In this document: positions 35,190 to 47,337 of the stretch, one piece after another
Layout: every line of letters starts with the position of its first letter
How positions within the stretch are numbered: position 1 is the first letter of the stretch
Assembly (NCBI RefSeq): GCF_011758655.1
Contig: NZ_JAAMPA010000003.1
Location: 248,001 to 312,000, forward strand
Origin: Modestobacter marinus
GTDB lineage: Bacteria > Actinomycetota > Actinomycetes > Mycobacteriales > Geodermatophilaceae
Direction of reading: 5' to 3'
Length of the DNA: 64,000 nucleotides
Made by a program: the position numbers and the translations under genes
Notes under the pieces: model-generated
The model's input: only the letters and a program-made list of their open reading frames with translations
Told to the model about the DNA's origin: nothing
The model's database searches: none

Positions 35190-35200
<11 letters not shown>
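35103..35200. repeat. Duplicated selD end with hairpin
   Basis: The 15-mer GCCGTCAGCGGACGA at 35186-35200, which spans the selD stop, recurs at 35103-35117, 83 bp downstream of selD. In the distal copy CAGCGGAC (35108-35115) pairs with GTCCGCTG (35126-35133), giving a possible selD terminator. A GCTCGCTCGCTGGCGCTCGC stretch lies between the copies. The whole 34941-35189 interval has no gene. Confidence 0.5.
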
Positions 35201-36197
<997 letters not shown>

Positions 36198-36341: not shown

Positions 36342-36437
36342 GGAGGCGTCAGGGTGTCTGGTGGCCCCCGCGGCCTCTAAAGCCGACGTGGTCGAGCATC
36401 TCGGCCAGGCGGGTTCGATTCCCGTCCGCCTCCGCCA
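36342..36437 (+). tRNA. selC: Selenocysteine tRNA with CUA anticodon
   Basis: 96-nt tRNA-Sec with encoded CCA (36435-36437) and discriminator G. Acceptor GGAGGCG pairs with CGCCTCC; T-arm GCGGG-TTCGATT-CCCGT; long variable arm TGGTCGAG-CAT-CTCGGCCA (8 bp), as in tRNA-Sec. Anticodon stem CGGC/GCCG closes a seven-base loop CTCTAAA: C32, T33, anticodon C-T-A (36377-36379), A37, A38. Normal tRNA-Sec has TCA for UGA; CTA predicts reading of UAG. The divergent selD and downstream selA/selB support Sec identity over tRNA-Ser or a suppressor. UAG-Sec is documented in Geodermatophilus and Blastococcus. The eighth acceptor pair is a T/C mismatch. Confidence 0.92.
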
Positions 36438-36478: not shown

Positions 36479-36630
36479 TGCCCGGAGTGGGCCCCGGCCG
36501 GCGGGGCGTCGTCCCGGCGTGGGCCTCGATGGCCTGGTCGCTGTGGCAGTCTCCCCGAGGACGACGGGCGGATGCCCGCCTCCGGGTCCCGATCGGGGGC
36601 CCGTGAGGCCACGAGCGGGAGGAGGTGCCG

Positions 36631-37629
36631 GTGGCCGCCACCCTGCACGACGTGGCCCGGCTGGCCGGTGTGTCCTTCAAGACGGTCTCGAACGTGGTCA
36701 ACGACTACCCGCACGTCCGGGCCAGCACCCGGCAGCGCGTGCTGGCCGCGATCGAGGAGCTGGGGTACCAGCCCAACCTCTCCGCGCGCAGCCTGCGCTC
36801 CGGACGCAGCGACGCGATCAGCCTGGCGGTGCCGGAGCTGCGGCTGCCCTACTTCGCGGAGCTGGCCGACGAGGTGATCCGCGCCGCCGAGCGACGCGGC
36901 CTGGTGGTCCTGATCGAGCAGACCAACCGGGACCGCCAGCGCGAGATCGACCTGCTGTCCAGCAACCGGCTGCGGATGGTCGACGGGCTGCTGTTCAGCC
37001 CGCTGGGCATGAGCGAGCAGGACGCCGCGCTGCTGGAGATCGGCGTGCCCCTGGTGCTGCTGGGGGAGCGGCTGTTCCACCCGGCGGTCGACCACGTGAT
37101 GATCCAGAACGTCGAGGCGGCGCGCGGCGCGACCCGGTACCTGCTCGAGCGCGGGCGGCGGCGCATCGCGGTGGTGGGCTACCACCCCGGCGAGGTCATC
37201 GGCTCCGCCGGCCTGCGGTTCCGCGGCTACCGGGAGGCGCTGGAGGAGGCCGGGATCGCCCTCGACGAGCGCCTGCTCGGGGTGGCCGAGCTCTGGCACC
37301 GGCACCAGGGGGCCGAGGCCGCGCACCAGCTGCTGGAGTCCGGCGCGGACTTCGACGCGGTCTTCGCCTTCAACGACACCCTCGCCCTGGGTGCGATGCA
37401 CGCCCTGCTGGCCGCCGGACGGCGGGTCCCCGAGGACGTCGCGGTCATCGGCTTCGACAACACCGACGAGGGTCAGTACTCCCAGCCCACGCTGACCACG
37501 ATCGACCCCGGACGGCGCGAGATCGCCGATCTCGCGGTGGAGACGGTGACCCGCCGGATCGCCGACCGGGAGCTCCCGGTCCAGCACGTGGCGGTCGGCT
37601 GGTCCCTCGTGGAGCGCGAGTCCACCTGA
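36631..37629 (+). CDS. LacI family transcriptional regulator
   Basis: 332-residue repressor. The N-terminal HTH plus hinge (about 1-55: TLHDVARLAGVSFKTVSNVV, LSARSLRSGRS) is followed by a periplasmic-binding-like sugar-sensing domain (DGLLFSPLG, GFDNTDEGQYSQPTLTTI). GTG 36631 has GGGAGGAGG five bases upstream. It lies directly before the arabinoside operon, whose promoter carries a LacI-type palindrome, so it should repress that operon until an arabinose-containing ligand binds; the ligand is inferred from the GH51 gene. Confidence 0.9.
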   Translation: MAATLHDVARLAGVSFKTVSNVVNDYPHVRASTRQRVLAAIEELGYQPNLSARSLRSGRSDAISLAVPELRLPYFAELADEVIRAAERRGLVVLIEQTNRDRQREIDLLSSNRLRMVDGLLFSPLGMSEQDAALLEIGVPLVLLGERLFHPAVDHVMIQNVEAARGATRYLLERGRRRIAVVGYHPGEVIGSAGLRFRGYREALEEAGIALDERLLGVAELWHRHQGAEAAHQLLESGADFDAVFAFNDTLALGAMHALLAAGRRVPEDVAVIGFDNTDEGQYSQPTLTTIDPGRREIADLAVETVTRRIADRELPVQHVAVGWSLVEREST

Positions 37630-37744
37630 CCGCCGACGGCCGGGCGTGAGGTGCCGGCCCGGGCGAGAGCGCTCTCCCACGCGCCGCCGCCGGCTCGTCC
37701 GGCGGGGCCCCGCGGGGGCATTGGTCACGAGTCGGTCGCGGTGC

Positions 37745-37773
37745 TTGACAGCACCCCGGCCGGTGAGCAGGAT
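37745..37773 (+). promoter_or_regulatory. Promoter of the arabinoside operon
   Basis: -35 TTGACA (37745-37750), 17-bp spacer, -10 CAGGAT (37768-37773), start expected near 37780. It lies 115 bp after lacI and ~300 bp before the binding-protein gene. Confidence 0.7.
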
Positions 37774-37781
37774 CTCGATTC

Positions 37782-37791
37782 ACAACGTTGT
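37782..37791. promoter_or_regulatory. LacI-family operator
   Basis: ACAACGTTGT, a perfect palindrome with the central CG typical of LacI-family operators, flanked by A/T (TTC...AAAA), placed at +1 to +12 of the promoter at 37745-37773. The A/T content stands out from all surrounding DNA. The lacI gene immediately upstream is the natural partner. Confidence 0.8.
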
Positions 37792-38071
37792 AAAAGTGCT
37801 CCACCGCACAGCTCGTCCAGCGAGCGGACCACAGGATCGCCCAACCACGGCGACCGGAACGCCTCTCCCGGACGCAGGCAGGACCCCGTCGCAGGGCACG
37901 GGTCCGGCGCCGCCGGCGCCGGGCGCACCGGTCCTCGCGCACGCCCCGGCCAACGCATCGCGCACGACCGCACCACCAGGCACTCCGCACCACCGCGCAC
38001 CCCGCACAGCACGCACTCCGCACCACCCCACGACGACGACGTCAGTGGGCGCCACTCCTACAGGGAGCACC
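37792..38071 (+). other. Long C-rich leader of the arabinoside operon
   Basis: About 280 nt between operator and the GTG of the binding-protein gene. The transcript strand becomes strongly C-rich and G-poor between about 37960 and 38045 (CACC, CCGC, CACCCC runs), the composition of Rho-utilisation sites. A weak GGGAG element precedes the start. No small coding frame is convincing. Confidence 0.4.
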
Positions 38072-39424
38072 GTGAAGAACAGACTCCTCACCGTCGTCCT
38101 CGGCGCCGGCACCGTGATGGCCTCGCTCTCCGCCTGCGGTGGCGGGGACGGAGGCGACACCGCCAGCGCAGACGCCGGCAACTGCAGCGTCCCCATCGCC
38201 AAGCCCGAGGCCGCCGTCGTCTCGGTCTGGGCCTGGTACCCCAACATGAAGACGGTCGTCGAGAACTTCAACGGCTCGCACGACGACGTCCAGGTCTGCC
38301 TGACCAACGCCGGCCAGGGCGCCGACGAGTACGCCCGATTCCAGACCGCGGTCTCCGCGGGCACCGGCGCGCCGGACGTGATCATGCTCGAGACCGACAC
38401 CGTCCCGGTCTTCGCGCTCCAGGAGGCGCTCGTCGACCTCACCGAGTACGGCGCCGAGGAGGTCGAGGGCAACTTCGGCGCGGGCGCCTGGGCGGACGTC
38501 TCCAGCGGTGACGCCGTCTACGGCATCCCGGTCGACGGCGGTCCGATGGCGATGATGTACCGCACCGACGTCTTCGAGCAGTACGGCATCACCCCACCCA
38601 CGACGTGGGAGGAGTACCGGGCCGCAGGCGAGAAGCTGAAGGCCGCCGGCGGACCGCTCATGGGCGACTTCCCGGCCAACGTGCCGGCCCCGACCGTCGC
38701 GCTCATGCAGCAGAACGGCGCCGAGCCCTGGGTCTACGACTCCGGCGACCCGACCCAGCTGGAGATCAACCTGAACAGTCCGGAGAGCAAGGAGGTCCTC
38801 GACTACTGGGCCGGCCTGGTGCGCGACGGGCTGGTCGGCACCCAGGACCAGTTCACCACCGACTACATCGCGGGGGCGATCCGCGGTGACTACGCCACCT
38901 ACATCTCCGCCGCCTGGGCGCCCGGCTACCTGACCGGTGCCGGCGCCGGTGAGGGCGAGGACGCCGGCAACTGGGCGGTGGCGCCGCTGCCGCAGTGGGA
39001 CCCGGCCAACCCGGTGTCGGTGAACTGGGGTGGCTCGGTGTTCTCGGTCACCAGCCAGTCCGAGCAGCCCGAGCTCGCCGCGCAGGTGGCGAAGGAGCTC
39101 TACGCCGACGACGCCTCGCTGACCGACGGGTGGACCAGCCAGACGATCTTCCCGCTCAACCAGTCGGTGCTCAGCTCGCAGGAGTTCATCGACAACCAGT
39201 CGGAGTTCTTCAACGGCCAGACGGCCAACAAGGACGTCTACATCCCCGCCGCCGACGCCTACGAGGGCTCGACCTACAGCCCCTTCGGCACGACGTTCTA
39301 CGCCCAGTTCACCGAGGAGATCGCCGCGATCAACGCGGGGGAGAAGACCGGCTCCGAGGCGCTGGACGACCTGCAGGCCGAGATGGAGCAGTACGCGACG
39401 GAGCAGGGCTTCACGCTCCAGTGA
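38072..39424 (+). CDS. Sugar ABC transporter substrate-binding lipoprotein (CUT1)
   Basis: 450-residue extracellular solute-binding lipoprotein (MalE-like, family 1). Signal peptide with lipobox LSAC, lipidated Cys22, then a Gly/Asp-rich tether. The body shows DVIMLETDTVPVFALQEALVD, YGIPVDGGPMAMMYRTDVF and WGGSVFSVTSQSEQPELA, typical of CUT1 receptors. GTG 38072 was chosen for the signal peptide. First gene of the operon; a 16-bp stem follows the stop. The neighbouring GH51 enzyme suggests arabino-oligosaccharides as ligand. Confidence 0.9.
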   Translation: MKNRLLTVVLGAGTVMASLSACGGGDGGDTASADAGNCSVPIAKPEAAVVSVWAWYPNMKTVVENFNGSHDDVQVCLTNAGQGADEYARFQTAVSAGTGAPDVIMLETDTVPVFALQEALVDLTEYGAEEVEGNFGAGAWADVSSGDAVYGIPVDGGPMAMMYRTDVFEQYGITPPTTWEEYRAAGEKLKAAGGPLMGDFPANVPAPTVALMQQNGAEPWVYDSGDPTQLEINLNSPESKEVLDYWAGLVRDGLVGTQDQFTTDYIAGAIRGDYATYISAAWAPGYLTGAGAGEGEDAGNWAVAPLPQWDPANPVSVNWGGSVFSVTSQSEQPELAAQVAKELYADDASLTDGWTSQTIFPLNQSVLSSQEFIDNQSEFFNGQTANKDVYIPAADAYEGSTYSPFGTTFYAQFTEEIAAINAGEKTGSEALDDLQAEMEQYATEQGFTLQ

Positions 39425-39447
39425 GCTGACCCCCCGCCCGGCCGTCC

Positions 39448-39485
39448 GGGTGCCGGGAGCGGGACGACCCCCGCTCCCGGCACCC
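39448..39485 (+). terminator. Intra-operon hairpin between binding protein and permease
   Basis: GGGTGCCGGGAGCGGG pairs perfectly with 39470-39485 around a six-base loop. It should act as partial terminator and 3' stabiliser, giving more binding protein than permease, as known for malE-malF. Confidence 0.7.
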
Positions 39486-39518
39486 CCTCCCTCCCCTGCG
39501 CACGAGAGCGAGACCGCA

Positions 39519-40466
39519 ATGGCAACGCTGGACACGGCGCCGCGGCCGCAGGCCCCGGCCCCGGACCGAGCCCCCGGACGCAGCCGACGGCGCCGCCGCG
39601 GCCGTTCGCAGGGCCTCATCGGCTGGGCCTTCCTGGCCCCCTTCGCCCTGGTGTTCCTGCTCTTCCTGGTGACACCGCTGCTCTACGCCTTCTACCTCAG
39701 CCTCTACACCAAGGGCCTGGCCACCGGTGAGCGCTTCGCCGGCCTGGACAACTACACCCGCGCCTTCACCGACCCGGCCTTCCTGCGCGGCGTCTGGTTC
39801 GTCATCCGGTTCTCCGCGGTCGTCATCCCGGTGCAGATCCTGGTCGCGCTGGCCGCAGCGCTGGTACTGGACTCGGTCACCAGCCGCTTCGCCCGCTTCT
39901 CCCGGCTGATGATCTTCGTGCCGTACGCGATCCCCGCGGTGATCGGCGCCGTCATGTGGGGCTTCCTCTACAGCCCCAACTTCGGCCCCCTGGAGCAGCT
40001 GTTCGGCGACAGCGCACCGTTCCTGCTCAGCCCGGACAACCTGTTCTACGGGTTCACCAACGTGGTCACCTGGCAGTGGGCCGGCTACTACATGATCATC
40101 ATCTACGCCGCCCTGCAGGGCATCGACCCGGCCGTCTACGAGGCGGCCCGGATCGACGGCGCCAACGCGCGGCAGATCGCGCTGCGGATCAAGGTCCCGA
40201 TGATCAGCTCCGCGCTGATCCTCATCCTGGTCTTCTCGCTGATCGGGACGCTGCAGTTCTTCACCGAACCGCAGGTGCTGACCCCGATCTCCAACGGGGC
40301 GATCAGCACCGACATCACGCCGAACGTCTACGCCTTCAACCTGGCGTTCCGGTTCGCGCAGTTCAACTACGCCTCCGCCATCTCCTTCGCGCTGGGCATC
40401 GTCGTCTTCATCGGCGTCTACCTGTTCCTCTTCCTGACCCGCAAGCGTGGGGGGTTCCTCAAGTGA
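39519..40466 (+). CDS. Sugar ABC transporter permease (MalF-like)
   Basis: 315-residue integral membrane protein with six TM helices, first at about residues 35-58. The EAA cytoplasmic loop is YEAARIDGANARQIALRIKVPM, here with the canonical EAA-x3-G spacing (residues about 205-220), which contacts the ATPase. A basic Arg-rich N-terminus precedes TM1. ATG 39519 was chosen from homology; no strong Shine-Dalgarno is seen. The stop overlaps the next permease start by four bases. Confidence 0.9.
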   Translation: MATLDTAPRPQAPAPDRAPGRSRRRRRGRSQGLIGWAFLAPFALVFLLFLVTPLLYAFYLSLYTKGLATGERFAGLDNYTRAFTDPAFLRGVWFVIRFSAVVIPVQILVALAAALVLDSVTSRFARFSRLMIFVPYAIPAVIGAVMWGFLYSPNFGPLEQLFGDSAPFLLSPDNLFYGFTNVVTWQWAGYYMIIIYAALQGIDPAVYEAARIDGANARQIALRIKVPMISSALILILVFSLIGTLQFFTEPQVLTPISNGAISTDITPNVYAFNLAFRFAQFNYASAISFALGIVVFIGVYLFLFLTRKRGGFLK

Positions 40467-41383
40467 GCGTCCTGACCCGAACCGCCGACGTCGAGGCCCC
40501 GCCGACCGGGGCGGCCGCTGCCCCCCGCCGCCGGGGCCGGCGCGCCTGGACCTCGCACGTGTTCCTCGCGTTCCTGGTCCTGTACTTCGTGCTGCCGCTG
40601 TGGTTCCTGGTGGTGGCGAGCACCAAGAGCGGCGGCGGGCTGTTCAACTCGCCCAACGGCGCGCTCTGGTTCGGCGACGGCTTCCACCTGTTCGACAACC
40701 TGTCGACGCTGTTCACCTACAACGACGGCATCTACCTGCGCTGGCTGGGCAACTCGCTGCTCTACGCCTTCGGCGGGGGAGTGGGCGCCACCGTCCTGGC
40801 CGTCCTGGCCGGCTACGCCTTCGCCAAGTTCGACTTCCCGGGCCGGCGGCTGACCTTCGCGCTCCTGCTGGGCGCGGTGATGGTGCCGATGACGGCGCTG
40901 GTGATCCCCACCTTCGTGATGCTGTCGGAGGTCGGGATGACCAACACGGTGTGGGCGGTGATCCTGCCGTCGATGCTCAGCCCGTTCGGCGTCTACCTGA
41001 TGCGGGTCTACTGCGCCGACGCCGTCCCCGACGAGCTGCTGGACGCCGCCCGGATGGACGGCGCCGGGGAGTTCCGGGTGTTCCGGCAGGTGGCCCTGCC
41101 GCTCATGCGCCCGGCACTGGTCACCGTGCTGCTGCTGTCGGTCGTGGGCACCTGGAACAACTACTTCCTGCCACTGGCCGTGCTCTCGGACTCCCAGCTC
41201 TTCCCGGTGACCGTCGGGATCAACCTCTGGCAGGGGCTGGCCGGCGCCAACAACGGCGGCGGGGTGTCGCTGTACACCCTGATCATCGTCGGCTCGCTGG
41301 TCTCGATCCTGCCGCTGATCGGCGCCTTCCTCGGCCTGCAGAAGTACTGGCAGGGCGGGCTCTCCATCGGCAGCCTCAAGTAG
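40463..41383 (+). CDS. Sugar ABC transporter permease (MalG-like)
   Basis: 306-residue second permease with six TM helices; EAA-type loop LLDAARMDGAGEFRVFRQVA (about residues 193-212). The first TM begins near residue 35 after an Ala/Pro/Arg-rich cytosolic stretch. It ends QKYWQGGLSIGSLK, the usual MalG-type terminus. GTG 40463 overlaps the upstream stop. The stop codon is TAG. A small hairpin lies between this gene and abfA. Confidence 0.9.
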   Translation: MSVLTRTADVEAPPTGAAAAPRRRGRRAWTSHVFLAFLVLYFVLPLWFLVVASTKSGGGLFNSPNGALWFGDGFHLFDNLSTLFTYNDGIYLRWLGNSLLYAFGGGVGATVLAVLAGYAFAKFDFPGRRLTFALLLGAVMVPMTALVIPTFVMLSEVGMTNTVWAVILPSMLSPFGVYLMRVYCADAVPDELLDAARMDGAGEFRVFRQVALPLMRPALVTVLLLSVVGTWNNYFLPLAVLSDSQLFPVTVGINLWQGLAGANNGGGVSLYTLIIVGSLVSILPLIGAFLGLQKYWQGGLSIGSLK

Positions 41384-41391
41384 CGCCCGGC

Positions 41392-41416
41392 GCCGCCCGC
41401 CCCCGCGGCGGGCGGC
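41392..41416 (+). terminator. Hairpin between permease and abfA
   Basis: GCCGCCCGC (41392-41400) pairs with GCGGGCGGC (41408-41416), nine bases past the permease stop. The rest of the gap to 41526 is CCGG-rich. Confidence 0.5.
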
Positions 41417-41526
41417 CCCCGCCGGCCCTGCCGGCCTCGTCTGGCTCCGCCGGCCCCGCCGGCCGCAGCCCTCCCCACCCCACCCCATGCGATCGCGGCA
41501 CCGCCGCGCCCTCGAGGAGCACCCCC

Positions 41527-43038
41527 ATGCCCGCTGCACGTCTCACGCTCGACCCGCGCTTCACGGTCGGCGCGGTCCACCGCCGCGTCTTCGGCTCCTT
41601 CGTCGAGCACCTCGGCCGCTGTGTCTACGACGGCATCTACGAGCCGGGGCACCCGGCCGCCGACGAGGAGGGCTTCCGCACCGACGTCCTGGACCTGGTC
41701 CGCGAGCTGGGGGTGTCGACGATCCGCTACCCGGGCGGCAACTTCGTCTCCGGCTACCGCTGGGAGGACGGCGTCGGCCCCCGGGAGTCCCGGCCCAAGC
41801 GGCTCGACCTCGCCTGGCACTCCCTGGAGACCAACCAGGTCGGCCTGCACGAGTTCGCCCGCTGGAACGACCGGGTCGGCAGCGAGCTGATGCTGGCGGT
41901 CAACCTCGGCACCCGCGGCGTCCAGGAGGCGCTGGACCTGCTCGAGTACAGCAACGTCCGGTCCGGCTCGGCGCTGTCGGACCAGCGCATCGCCGACGGC
42001 ACCCCGGAGCCCCTCGGTGTCCGCATGTGGTGCCTGGGCAACGAGATGGACGGCCCCTGGCAGCTGGGGCACCGCAGCGCCGAGGACTACGGCAAGCTCG
42101 CCAGCCAGACGGCCAAGGCGATGCGCCAGCTCGACCCTTCGGTGCAGCTGGTGGTGTGCGGCAGCTCCAACTCGGACATGCCGACGTTCGGCGCGTGGGA
42201 GCGCACCGTCCTGGAGCACACCTACGTCGACGTCGACTACATCTCCTGCCACGCGTACTACGCCGAGAAGGACGGCGACCTGGCCGGCTTCCTGGCCTCC
42301 GCCGTGGACATGGACCGGTTCATCGAGGCCGTCGTCGCCACCGCCGACCACGTCAAGGCGGTGCTGCGCAGCGAGAAGACGATCGACATCTCCTTCGACG
42401 AGTGGAACGTCTGGAACCAGGACCGCTTCCACGACGAGGACCAGATCACCGACATCGAGCAGTGGCCCTACGCCCCGCGGCTGCTCGAGGACGTCTACTC
42501 CGTCGCCGACGCGGTCGTGGTCGGCAACCTGCTGATCTCGCTGCTCAAGCACGCCGACCGGGTGACCTCGGCCAGCCTCGCCCAGCTGGTCAACGTGATC
42601 GCCCCGATCATGACCGAGCCCGGCGGCCCGGCCTGGCGGCAGACGACGTTCTTCCCGTTCGCGCTCACCTCGCGGCTGGCCCGGGGCGACGCGCTGCGGG
42701 TCGAGCTCGCGTGCGAGACCTACCCGACCGGGAAGCACGGCGACGTCCCGGTCGTCGACGCCGTCGCCACGCACGACCCCGCCACCGGCCGGACGGCGCT
42801 GTTCCTGGTCAACCGGGCGATCGAGGGGCCGGTGACGGTGACCGTCGACGCCGGCGCGCTCGGCGACGTCGACGTCCTGGAGACGCACACGCTGCACGAC
42901 GGCGACCCCTACGCCGCCAACACGCTGGCCGAGCCGACCCGGGTCGCCCCGGGGGAGAACAAGAGCGTCCTGCTGGAGAACGGGTCGCTCACCGTGGAGC
43001 TGCCCCCCGTCTCCTGGACGGCGATCTCCCTCGGCTGA
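41527..43038 (+). CDS. abfA: Alpha-L-arabinofuranosidase, GH51
   Basis: 503-residue retaining glycosidase that releases arabinofuranosyl residues from arabino-oligosaccharides. It begins with the GH51 hallmark [19 protein letters not shown]. Catalytic acid/base Glu173 is in [10 protein letters not shown] and nucleophile Glu292 in FDEWNVW, almost the same numbering as Geobacillus AbfA (175/294). No signal peptide, so it acts in the cytosol on imported oligosaccharides. ATG 41527 is preceded by GAGGAG. It lies within the transporter operon, between permeases and ATPase. Confidence 0.95.
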
Positions 43039-43053
43039 GCCACCTGCACCACC

Positions 43054-43083
43054 CCGGGCGGGCGCGCGCAGGCGCCCGCCCGG
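43054..43083 (+). terminator. Hairpin between abfA and the ATPase gene
   Basis: CCGGGCGGGCGC pairs perfectly with 43072-43083 around a six-base loop, 16 bp after abfA. Confidence 0.6.
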
Positions 43084-43126
43084 ACCACCCCCACCCACCG
43101 GATCCACCACCACCAGGAGACGCCCG

Positions 43127-44200
43127 ATGGCGACCGTCACCTTCGACCGAGCAACGTGTGCCTATGCCGGAGCCGACCGCCGGGCGGTCGACGAACTGGA
43201 CCTGGAGGTGGCCGACGGCGAGTTCCTGGCGCTCGTGGGGCCCTCCGGGTGCGGCAAGTCGACGTCCCTGCGGATGCTCGCCGGGCTCGAGGACGTCACC
43301 GAGGGCGCGATCCGGATCGGCGGGCGCGACGTCACCGACGTGCCGCCGAAGGACCGGGACATCGCGATGGTGTTCCAGAACTACGCGCTCTACCCGCACA
43401 TGACCGTGGGCGACAACATGGGCTTCGCGCTCAAGATCGCCGGTGTCGACAAGGCCGAGCGGGACAAGCGGGTCCGGGAGGCGGCGAAGCTGCTGGACCT
43501 GGAGCCCTACCTGGACCGCAAGCCGAAGGCCCTGTCCGGTGGTCAGCGGCAGCGGGTCGCGATGGGCCGGGCGATCGTCCGCTCCCCGCAGGTGTTCCTG
43601 ATGGACGAGCCGCTGTCGAACCTGGACGCCAAGCTGCGGGTGCAGACGCGCACGCAGATCGCCTCGCTGCAGCGCCGGCTCGGGGTGACCACCGTCTACG
43701 TCACCCACGACCAGGTCGAGGCGATGACCATGGGCGACCGGGTCGCGGTGCTCAAGGACGGCGTCCTGCAGCAGTGCGACGCCCCGGGGGTGCTCTACGA
43801 CCGCCCGGCCAACGTCTTCGTCGCCGGCTTCATCGGCTCCCCGGCGATGAACCTGTTCGAGCTGCCGGTGACCGACGGGGGAGTGCGCTTCGGTGACCTG
43901 GTCCTCCCGGTGCCGCGCGACGTGCTCGGCCAGGTCACCGGCGGCACGGTGACCCTCGGCGTGCGGCCGGAGGACCTCGCGCTCGCCGACCGGGGCGTCG
44001 CCGTCCAGGTCGACGTCGTCGAGGAGCTGGGCGCCGACGCCTACGTGTACGGACGGAGCGAGCAGGGCGGGGAGCAGCGTCCGATCACCGTGCGGGTCGA
44101 CGGGCGGCGCCCGCCCCGGCGGGACTCGGTCGTCCACGTCGCGCCGCACCCGGACCGCGTGCACCTCTTCGGCGCCGACGGCGGGCGACTGGGGGCCTGA
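43127..44200 (+). CDS. Sugar ABC transporter ATP-binding protein (UgpC/MsmK-like)
   Basis: 357-residue ATPase. Walker [11 protein letters not shown]-loop [12 protein letters not shown], signature LSGGQRQRV, Walker [14 protein letters not shown]-loop [10 protein letters not shown], then a C-terminal TOBE/OB region ([12 protein letters not shown]) where regulatory proteins can bind. It belongs to the CUT1 ATPases that often serve several transporters; here it is the last gene of the operon and so probably dedicated to the two permeases upstream. Shine-Dalgarno CAGGAG precedes ATG 43127. Confidence 0.92.
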
Positions 44201-44260: not shown

Positions 44261-45571
44261 ATGACGACCGACCCCCGCCGCGCGGTGCCGCGGACCGACG
44301 CCGTGCTCGCCGAGCCCCAGGTCGCCGCCGCCGTCGCCCGGCTGGGGCGGGACCTGGTCAAGGCCGCGGTGCAGGCCGCCCAGCAGCGGGTCCGGGGCGG
44401 CGAGCTGGCCCCGGACGACGTCGTCCCGGCCGTGCTGGCCGGGTTGCCCGGCACCGCCGGCAGCCTGCACCCGGTGCTCAACGCCACCGGCGTGCTGGTG
44501 CACACGAACCTGGGCCGCGCCCCGCTGTCGGCCGCGGCCGTCGAGGCGGTGGCCGCCGCCAGCGGCACCACCGACGTCGAGCTGGACCTCCGGACCGGCC
44601 GACGCGGCCCGCGGGGAGAGGGCGCGCTGTCGGCGCTGCTGGCTGCCGTGCCCGCCGCGGAGGCCGCGCTGGTGGTCAACAACTGCGCCGCCGCCCTCGC
44701 GCTGGTGGCCACGGCGCTCGGCGGCGAGCTGGTCATCGCCCGCGGCGAGCTGGTCGAGATCGGCGACGGCTTCCGCATCCCCGACCTGCTGGTCAGCTCC
44801 GGTGCCCGGCTGCGCGAGGTCGGGACGACGAACCGGGTCTCGCTCGCCGACTACACCGACGCCCTCGGCCCGGACACCGGCGCGGTGCTCAAGGTGCACC
44901 CCTCCAACTTCGTCGTCCGCGGGTTCACCCGCTCCGCCGACGTCGCCGAGCTGGCGCCCGCACTGGCCGGCACCGGGGTGCCGCTGGTCGCCGACGTGGG
45001 CAGCGGGCTGCTCCGCCCGCACCCGCTGCTGCCCGACGAGCCGGACCTGCAGACGACGCTGGCCGCCGGCGCGGACCTGGTGCTCTCCAGCGGGGACAAG
45101 CTGCTCGGCGGGCCGCAGGCCGGCATCGTGCTCGGCCGGGCCGACCTGGTGCAGCGGCTCCGCCGGCACCCGCTCTACCGGGCACTGCGGGTGGACAAGA
45201 CGACCCTCGCCGCGCTGGAGGCGACGCTGCGCGGGCCGGTGCCGCCGGTGCGCCGCATGCTCGACGCGGACCTCGGCGGCCTGCAGGCGCGGGCCGACGC
45301 GCTGGCCGAGGTGCTCCGGGCCGCCGGGGTGGCGGCGACGGCGGTGCCGGCCACCGCCCGGGTCGGTGGCGGGGGAGCCCCGGAGTTCGAGCTGCCCAGC
45401 GCGGCGGTGGCGGTGCCGCTGGCCTTCGCGGAGCCGCTGCGCGCCGCCAGCACCCCGGTGGTCGGCTACGCCGCCGGTGACCGCACCCTGCTGGACCTGC
45501 GGAGTCTCGCGCCCGAGGACGACGAGCGGCTGGCCGCGATGGTGCTGGAGGTGGCCCGCCGGTGGACGTGA
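44261..45571 (+). CDS. selA: L-seryl-tRNA(Sec) selenium transferase
   Basis: 436-residue PLP enzyme that converts Ser-tRNA-Sec to Sec-tRNA-Sec with selenophosphate. N-terminal helical domain, then LNATGVLVHTNLGRAPLS, the PLP-binding NNCAAALAL, and the Schiff-base Lys280 in SSGDKLLGGPQAG. All conserved SelA landmarks are present and length is normal. ATG 44261 lies nine bases after TAGGCT. It overlaps selB by ten bases. Its tRNA substrate is the CUA tRNA-Sec 8 kb upstream. Confidence 0.95.
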   Translation: MTTDPRRAVPRTDAVLAEPQVAAAVARLGRDLVKAAVQAAQQRVRGGELAPDDVVPAVLAGLPGTAGSLHPVLNATGVLVHTNLGRAPLSAAAVEAVAAASGTTDVELDLRTGRRGPRGEGALSALLAAVPAAEAALVVNNCAAALALVATALGGELVIARGELVEIGDGFRIPDLLVSSGARLREVGTTNRVSLADYTDALGPDTGAVLKVHPSNFVVRGFTRSADVAELAPALAGTGVPLVADVGSGLLRPHPLLPDEPDLQTTLAAGADLVLSSGDKLLGGPQAGIVLGRADLVQRLRRHPLYRALRVDKTTLAALEATLRGPVPPVRRMLDADLGGLQARADALAEVLRAAGVAATAVPATARVGGGGAPEFELPSAAVAVPLAFAEPLRAASTPVVGYAAGDRTLLDLRSLAPEDDERLAAMVLEVARRWT

Positions 45572-47337
45572 GCGCAGCGGGCCCGACCGGCATGGACGTC
45601 GTCGCCACGGCCGGCCACGTCGACCACGGCAAGTCGACGCTGGTCACGGCGCTGACCGGGATGGAACCGGACCGGTGGGAGGAGGAGCGCCGGCGCGGGC
45701 TCACCATCGACCTCGGGTTCGCCTGGACGACGCTGCCCTCGGGGCGCCGGCTGGCGGTGGTCGACGTGCCCGGGCACGAGCGGTTCGTCGGCAACATGCT
45801 CGCCGGGGTGGGGTCGGTGCCCGCCGCGCTGGTCGTGGTCGCCGCCGACGACGGGTGGTCGGCGCAGACCGCCGAGCACGTCGCCGTCCTGGACGCCCTC
45901 GGGGTGCGGCACGGGTTGCTGGCGGTCACCAAGTCCGACCTCGCCGACCCGGCGCCGGTGCTCGCCGACGCCGCCGAGCGGCTGGCCGGGACGTCGCTGG
46001 GCCGGGTGCCGGCCGTGGCGGTCAGCGCCCGCGCCGGCACCGGGCTGCCGGAGCTGGCGGGCGCGCTGGAGCAGGTGCTGGCCGGGCTGCCCGCGCCCGA
46101 CACGGGCGCGCCGGTGCGGCTGTGGATCGACCGGGCGTTCACCATCCGCGGCGCCGGCACCGTCGTGACCGGCACCCTGGCCGGCGGCACCGTGACCACC
46201 GGCGACCGCCTCGACCTCGGCGGGCGCGCGGTGACCGTGCGCGGGCTGCAGTCGCTGGGCGCGCCGGTCGAGACGGCGTCGGCCACGGCCCGGGTGGCGC
46301 TCAACCTGCGCGGCGTGGCGGTGGAGGAGCTCTCCCGCGGCGACGCGCTGCTGACCCCCGAGGCGTTCCGGCGCACCGCCGACCTCGACGTGACGCTGGT
46401 GCGGCCGGTCGAGGAGAAGCTGCCCGCGGAGCTGGTCGTGCACATCGGGTCCGCGACGGTCGCGGCGCGCGTGCGCCCGCTGGACGGGTCGGCGCTGCGG
46501 CTGCGGCTGGCCACCGAGCTGCCGTTGCGGGTGGGCGACCGGCTGCTGCTGCGCGACCCCGGTGCCCGCCGGGTGCACGGCGCCGAGGTGCGCGACGTGG
46601 ACCCGCCGGAGCTGCGTCGTCGGGGTGCGGCCCGGACCCGCGCAGCCGAGCTCGCCGAGCAGCCGCTGGGTGAGGCCGGGGCGCGGGCGGACCTGCTCCG
46701 GCGGCGGTTCGTGCGCCGCGCGGACTTCGTCGCCATGGGGTGGCCGGTGCCCGCGGACGCCACGGCCGTCGGCTCCTGGCTCCTCGCCCCGGGGCTGGCC
46801 GACGAGCTGGCCGCCCGGGTGCCGCAGGTCGTGGCCCGCTACCGCCAGTTGCGCCCACTGGAGCCCGGCCCGCCGACCGCCGTCCTGCGGTCGGCGCTGG
46901 AGCTGCCCGACGTCGAGCTGGTACCCGCCCTCGTCCGCGAGCCCCTGGCGCTGCGGGACGGCCGGGTCGTCGCCGGCGCGGCGGCGCTGCCGCCGGCGGT
47001 GCAGCGCGCGGTGGACGACATCCGCGCCCGGCTGCTCCAGGAGCCGTTCGCCGCACCGGAGGCCGGTGACCTGGTGGCCGCGGGACTGGGGCCCCGGGAG
47101 CTGGCGGCGGCGGTGCGGGACGAGCAGCTGGTGCGGATCGCCGAGGGCATCTACCTGGCACCCGGCGTCGCCGAGCAGGCCCGCGGCCGGCTGGCGGCGC
47201 TCCCGCAGCCCTTCACGCTCAGCGAGGCGCGCAAGGCGTGGGGGACCACCCGCCGGGTCGCCGTCCCGCTGGCCGAGTACCTCGACGCCCGAGGGGTCAC
47301 CGCCCGCCAGCCGGACAACACCCGCCGCCTGCGCTGA
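45562..47337 (+). CDS. selB: Selenocysteine-specific elongation factor SelB
   Basis: 591-residue EF-Tu-like GTPase that carries Sec-tRNA and binds the SECIS hairpin. G1 GHVDHGKST, G2 RRGLTIDLGFAW, G3 DVPGHERF, G4 TKSD. Domains II-III follow (FTIRGAGTVVTGTL), then the C-terminal winged helices (about 400-591; final segment FTLSEARKAWGTTRRVAVPLAEYL, here cited in part). GTG 45562 overlaps selA; ATG 45592 is an alternative that loses ten residues. In this organism it should act at UAG, since the tRNA anticodon is CUA; SelB does not read the codon itself. Confidence 0.95.
   Translation: MDVSAAGPTGMDVVATAGHVDHGKSTLVTALTGMEPDRWEEERRRGLTIDLGFAWTTLPSGRRLAVVDVPGHERFVGNMLAGVGSVPAALVVVAADDGWSAQTAEHVAVLDALGVRHGLLAVTKSDLADPAPVLADAAERLAGTSLGRVPAVAVSARAGTGLPELAGALEQVLAGLPAPDTGAPVRLWIDRAFTIRGAGTVVTGTLAGGTVTTGDRLDLGGRAVTVRGLQSLGAPVETASATARVALNLRGVAVEELSRGDALLTPEAFRRTADLDVTLVRPVEEKLPAELVVHIGSATVAARVRPLDGSALRLRLATELPLRVGDRLLLRDPGARRVHGAEVRDVDPPELRRRGAARTRAAELAEQPLGEAGARADLLRRRFVRRADFVAMGWPVPADATAVGSWLLAPGLADELAARVPQVVARYRQLRPLEPGPPTAVLRSALELPDVELVPALVREPLALRDGRVVAGAAALPPAVQRAVDDIRARLLQEPFAAPEAGDLVAAGLGPRELAAAVRDEQLVRIAEGIYLAPGVAEQARGRLAALPQPFTLSEARKAWGTTRRVAVPLAEYLDARGVTARQPDNTRRLR

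Follow-up and report, generated by a model that had tools for sequence, protein, structure and literature searches.

Selenocysteine tRNA gene and its neighbours

The window analysed here is the whole stretch of 64,000 nucleotides of Modestobacter marinus, a soil bacterium. It contains a single tRNA gene detected by ARAGORN and, nearby, selD, selA, and selB, all three above their NCBIfam cut-offs and all matching Pfam, in line with the sel locus proposed by a preliminary description of the sequence:

35190..36197, reverse strand: selD, selenide water dikinase, Cys type (HGGGCACK), no in-frame stop (TIGR00476, 387 bits, cut-off 125; translation)
36342..36437, forward strand: tRNA-Sec gene, CUA anticodon, CCA end encoded (ARAGORN; Rfam RF01852, 65.8 bits)
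36377..36379, forward strand: anticodon C-T-A, tRNA positions 34-36, within the loop CTCTAAA (sequence; ARAGORN; Rfam alignment)
44261..45571, forward strand: selA, L-seryl-tRNA(Sec) selenium transferase (PF03841, 319 bits; TIGR00474, 412 bits, cut-off 268)
45562..47337, forward strand: selB, selenocysteine (Sec)-specific elongation factor with winged-helix domain (TIGR00475, 285.5 bits, cut-off 242; SelB-wing_3)

The Rfam tRNA-Sec model matches 36342-36433 from end to end (model positions 1-91 of 91, E 3.5e-11, gathering cut-off 47 bits), with the long variable arm and the extended acceptor-T stack present and some positions flagged as non-standard pairs. The match is followed by a G at 36434 and by CCA at 36435-36437. 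Because the loop at 36375-36381 has seven bases, C-T-A falls at 36377-36379, and the covariance model puts C-U-A, and no different triplet, in the anticodon column, where the consensus has UCA. This CUA in place of the usual bacterial UCA is the defining difference of the variant. The sequence, ARAGORN, and the Rfam alignment agree with the earlier account of a 96-nt tRNA-Sec with the expected variable arm, acceptor, and T-arm, and with CTA instead of TCA.

A search of the whole genome (5.10 Mb, 12 contigs) with the tRNA-Sec model gave matches at four places, of which two exceeded the cut-off. ARAGORN assigns the three lowest-scoring (48.1, 35.9, and 33.9 bits) to tRNA-Ser, so no second tRNA-Sec, with TCA, was found by the Rfam model and ARAGORN in the 12 contigs, and the window copy is the only tRNA-Sec found. 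Since one tRNA-Ser of the same genome exceeds the cut-off (48.1 bits), the bit score by itself is no proof of identity; identity rests on the fold found by ARAGORN, the sel genes nearby, and the 17-bit lead over that tRNA-Ser, which together confirm 36342-36437 as a tRNA-Sec with a CTA anticodon.

ARAGORN labels this gene, and all 22 relatives with CTA among the loci given to it, as tRNA-Pyl, with which it shares the CUA anticodon. A pyrrolysine tRNA inserting Pyl at UAG is nevertheless an extremely improbable reading: the Rfam match to tRNA-Sec is end to end, and no other Rfam family, tRNA-Pyl included, reaches its gathering score in the window; the neighbours are sel genes and not pyl genes; and the in-frame TAG codons described below occupy Sec/Cys-type active-site positions of a formate dehydrogenase (FDH) and of an AhpC-like protein. 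The naming of CTA tRNA-Sec genes as tRNA-Pyl by ARAGORN calls for caution in annotation.

The distance between the tRNA and selA is ~7.8 kb; elsewhere, selA lies inside the ~1.5 kb flank in 50 of the 60 relative loci, some genomes being counted twice in this set. The intervening region (36625-44200) seems, from translations read by eye, to encode a LacI-type regulator, an ABC sugar transporter, and a glycosidase, and a lacI gene 93% identical is found at the same place in a locus of the same genus without selA (L030, G105). Integration of this sugar block at the 3' end of the tRNA was considered and rejected, as the window holds no further copy of the 3' end when up to 3 mismatches are allowed. 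The genome has one full-strength SelB, the second match being 35% over residues 14-269, and the closest named SelB is that of Modestobacter sp. VKM Ac-2983 (95%).

UAG codons at selenocysteine sites

The preliminary description predicted that this genome uses UAG, and not UGA, in its selenoprotein mRNAs, probably in an FDH encoded outside the window. Such a gene is present in this genome. It lies outside the window on the reverse strand (G000:C1:883801-887127; NCBIfam formate_DH_Act, NF041513, 1947 bits, cut-off 1400), and has one in-frame TAG, at C1:886569, which corresponds to the Sec site (NQARI-U-HSATVPG, residue 187) and is directly followed by a hairpin; the gene stops at TGA. An AhpC/TSA-like gene (Pfam match of 43.8 bits, cut-off 26) has a TAG at C2:961719, within DW-U-PYC, and also a hairpin. 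These are the only genes with an in-frame stop among the four PF00384 matches (in three genes) and the eight PF00578 matches of the genome, and no in-frame TGA was found in either set, so the predicted preference for UAG appears to hold at the level of sequence. Annotation that reads TAG as a stop truncates the FDH and AhpC-like genes in Geodermatophilaceae.

The hairpin of FDH could be compared across the family. The TAG stands within NQARI-TAG-H in all 30 fetched family loci, and a helix of seven pairs closed by the loop GGUCU starts eleven bases past it. In the alignment of the 17 distinct rows out of these 30 loci, 119 of 119 helix cells are paired, against 29-60% when the partners are slid by 1-3 columns. 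Columns 18 and 30, both third codon positions, pair as C-G (7 rows), G-U (7), or G-C (3). The covariation score and the paired-cell count are above those of all 500 shuffles; one of the seven pairs changed on both sides, which was equalled in 492 of the 500 shuffles, and the three further pair types were equalled in 467. As five of the seven pairs never vary, the covariation is supportive but not decisive.

These results support a reading of UAG-decoded Sec, and we consider it very probable that the window contains the locus by which a Modestobacter (Geodermatophilaceae) decodes Sec, with UAG as the codon. We infer the charging, delivery, and insertion as follows: SerRS would load the CUA tRNA-Sec with serine, SelA would turn Ser into Sec on the tRNA using selenophosphate from SelD, and SelB would deliver the Sec-tRNA to UAG codons with an immediate SECIS hairpin, where the competitor would be RF1 rather than RF2. 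About 3 of the 42 ORFs of the window end in TAG (39 end in TGA and none in TAA, by rough GC3-based calls), so UAG must keep two meanings, and a UAG that lacks the hairpin presumably still terminates.

Two other readings of the locus were weighed. Serine is the first amino acid loaded on tRNA-Sec, and the gene could be a general amber suppressor, with Ser-tRNA reading UAG anywhere and no Sec made. This is very improbable given the intact, conserved selA, selB, and selD genes, the maintenance of the FDH hairpin through changes at third codon positions, and the ordinary ORFs that seem to stop at TAG. The genome might also use both UGA and UAG for Sec, as a relative, Geodermatophilus marinus, has both tRNAs (see below). 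We regard this too as highly unlikely in Modestobacter: the TCA tRNA-Sec was not found in its genome, and neither of the TGA genes of G. marinus was matched there at the limits used. UAG-decoded Sec is the preferred reading of the locus.

Distribution of the variant and possible route of the codon switch

Mukai et al. 2016 are said to have described UAG-programmed Sec in Geodermatophilaceae using labelling experiments. The locus described here shares with the known system the CUA tRNA-Sec and the lack of a UCA copy, the TAG at the Sec site of FDH and in an AhpC-like gene, and the SECIS-like hairpin just past the codon, with limited covariation. A UGSC family search of the window's genome gave no match, but its control was silent too, so that nothing follows from it. 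The locus differs in that it concerns the genus Modestobacter, which is not named in the parts consulted of the Secmarker paper (PMC5330540). That text does contain UAG-encoded Sec in Geodermatophilaceae, including an AhpC with UAG-Sec in Blastococcus saxobsidens DD2, which bears out the preliminary description in treating the phenomenon as established in the family. The window locus therefore adds another case of a known variant, and what we add are family-wide anticodon counts and, as a new lead, a possible two-codon genome in G. marinus.

All 112 Geodermatophilaceae genomes match the tRNA-Sec model at E ≤0.001, and 110 of them above the cut-off, some of the matches being tRNA-Ser-like. The anticodon was read in 92 genomes (and not in the other 20): 85 have CTA, and 7 have TCA only. 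The CTA count is made of 75 of the 75 family genomes in the order-wide pattern search plus 10 more by ARAGORN, to which the 30 best-scoring loci were given. With these counts, UAG-Sec would reach beyond the few genomes already published to the greater part of one bacterial family. The seven TCA-only genomes, all small and fragmented, fall in three genera (g6, g7, and g8), and no FDH match was found at E 1e-60 in the nine genomes of these genera, which may be ancestral in this trait. Genera with nothing but UCA copies make it possible to locate the codon switch and to look for its intermediates.

An FDH match was obtained in 101 genomes, and in 98 of them a match spanning residue 187 contains a TAG, as read from the search rows. 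The matches of G034 and G096 stop short of this residue. Both FDH copies of G080 (L240 C12, L241 C4) miss ~20 residues around the Sec codon, and the hairpin, and have their parts in different frames, by an assembly fault or real loss; without this segment they are uninformative on the codon. For the FDH of G009, one TGA and one TAG were listed; the idea that the TGA is a further Sec codon was rejected, since it is near the 3' end of the frame, where the simplest reading is that it ends the gene. The AhpC-like gene is found in 30 of the 112 family genomes, 28 of which were listed with one TAG; in G104 and G029 there is a frameshift soon after the site, where the TAG is still present. The site thus has TAG in 30 of the 30 genomes with the gene, two of these being frameshifted copies. 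One of the genomes in which this TAG was seen, G009, seems to be that of B. saxobsidens DD2. A further genome (G037), 88% complete and possibly a mixed bin, has a CTA tRNA-Sec gene on each of two contigs (L039 C168, L073 C25). Outside the family, 322 genomes of the order were searched, and the CTA pattern occurs in one, G230, which belongs to another family and is 82% complete. It lies there on a contig of 4.8 kb (L076, C194:1-4845), whose SelD is 88% identical to that of the window, making a binning error (stray contig) likely.

The change from UCA to CUA takes two substitutions, and the tRNA could have passed through UCA-UUA-CUA, with a UUA intermediate expected to decode UAA and, through wobble, also UAG. 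The genes would have followed step by step, along UGA-UAA-UAG. Judging from the ORF ends in the window (39 of 42 in TGA, 3 in TAG), gene ends in UAA or UAG would have been few. No UUA tRNA-Sec was found among the 92 family genomes whose anticodon was read. The CTA tRNA of the window shares 90-91% identity with the TCA tRNAs of two relatives (G071 and G073), which fits an in-place change of the anticodon.

Canonical UGA-Sec cassettes of Actinobacteria, on plasmids of Arthrobacter and Tsukamurella, hold the same genes (FDH, selD, tRNA-Sec, selA, and selB) in a single block, and the Tsukamurella FDH has a hairpin with the GGUCU loop at the same place. They differ in that their tRNA-Sec has TCA and the Tsukamurella FDH has TGA. 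The Arthrobacter plasmid was typed as conjugative, and whole FDH-selD-tRNA-Sec(TCA)-selA-selB blocks are found also on the Tsukamurella plasmid (L238, L239). The presence of whole blocks on plasmids suggests that the Sec trait can pass from one actinobacterium to another.

A possible two-codon genome in Geodermatophilus marinus

Geodermatophilus sp. LHW52908 (G059) is given as the type strain of G. marinus in the consulted part of PMC12453565. Its CTA tRNA-Sec adjoins selD, selA, and selB (L072), and its FDH carries TAG. A second tRNA-Sec and two TGA-containing genes lie at one end of scaffold24 (NZ_QVQH01000024.1; contig C17, 69,133 bases):

C17:1169-1263 (L071), reverse strand: tRNA-Sec with TCA anticodon, 81.8 bits
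C17:1579-2154 (L071), forward strand: AhpD-like gene (TIGR01926, 112.6 bits, cut-off 81.8)
C17:4496-5467 (L071), reverse strand: second TGA protein, no Pfam/NCBIfam match

The AhpD-like gene, 316 bases from the TCA tRNA, has a TGA as its only internal stop, at NRCFY-U-MESH, a CxxU motif, and has kept its hairpin. AhpD-like TIGR01926 selenoproteins with CxxU are listed in a review (PMC13188914, parts consulted). In 64 readable of 67 loci of this family, G. marinus included, the site is TGA in 63 and TGC in 1 (genome_contigs). These loci are mostly titled Acidobacteria or kin, and the hairpin motif is exactly conserved in 57 of the 67. The TGA form occurs only in G. marinus among 397 genomes of the order, the other 11 matches being 32-40% identical and having no internal stop. 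Among possible donors, no tRNA-Sec was found next to the AhpD gene in the 45 scanned of the 66 relative loci. The TCA tRNA is 67% identical to the CTA tRNA of the same genome and 76-78% identical to two plasmid tRNAs; its greater closeness to the latter fits import. A second SelB was sought and rejected: there is one of full strength in G. marinus, and the sole other match is 35% over 14-269.

We lean towards the view, drawn from sequence comparisons, that LHW52908 uses two Sec codons. An inherited CUA tRNA would serve the UAG FDH, and an acquired island of low GC would have brought a UCA tRNA with the TGA AhpD-like gene, and perhaps the second protein. One SelB would serve both codons, and the imported gene would work only since its own tRNA came along, in a family that would have switched through UCA-UUA-CUA and UGA-UAA-UAG. 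Slightly short of an even chance, in our estimate, is the alternative of a misjoined assembly, or of an imported but inactive island whose TGA genes are truncated. The island does lie at a contig end beside apparent transposase genes, GC is 0.59-0.65 at 1-6 kb versus 0.75-0.77 at 20-69 kb (0.69-0.77 at 6-20 kb), and no sel gene was matched in the first 20 kb of C17. On the other hand, C17 has no N runs, a 3-kb piece of it (42-45 kb) aligns over almost its whole length with nine other genomes of the genus, at 78-82%, the TCA tRNA is intact, and the TGA is the sole stop inside the AhpD-like frame, which retains the hairpin. The lack of N runs and the genus-like segment at 42-45 kb also make foreign contamination an unlikely source of the island; a misjoin may still have arisen at an insertion element. 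Neither a two-Sec-codon genome nor G. marinus selenoproteins were found reported in a search largely outside subscription papers, which included the consulted parts of PMC5330540, PMC12453565, PMC13188914, and PMC7609411. If G. marinus does use two Sec codons, it would be a natural test of one SelB serving both, and would show how an imported selenoprotein gene copes under the other Sec codon of its host.

The second protein of the island has an in-frame TGA at QY-U-MAV. It has no match on plasmids, and none was found at E 1e-30 in 34 genomes with AhpD relatives nor in the window's genome. Its homologues number 262, with coverage of 79-85% among the 120 matches listed, and all ten that were fetched start at the Met that follows the TGA of G. 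marinus. As an ATG comes directly after the TGA and the hairpin is weak, the evidence for this protein as a selenoprotein is weak. The family to which it belongs (P0001-P0120), which has no match in Pfam or NCBIfam, is a candidate selenoprotein family.
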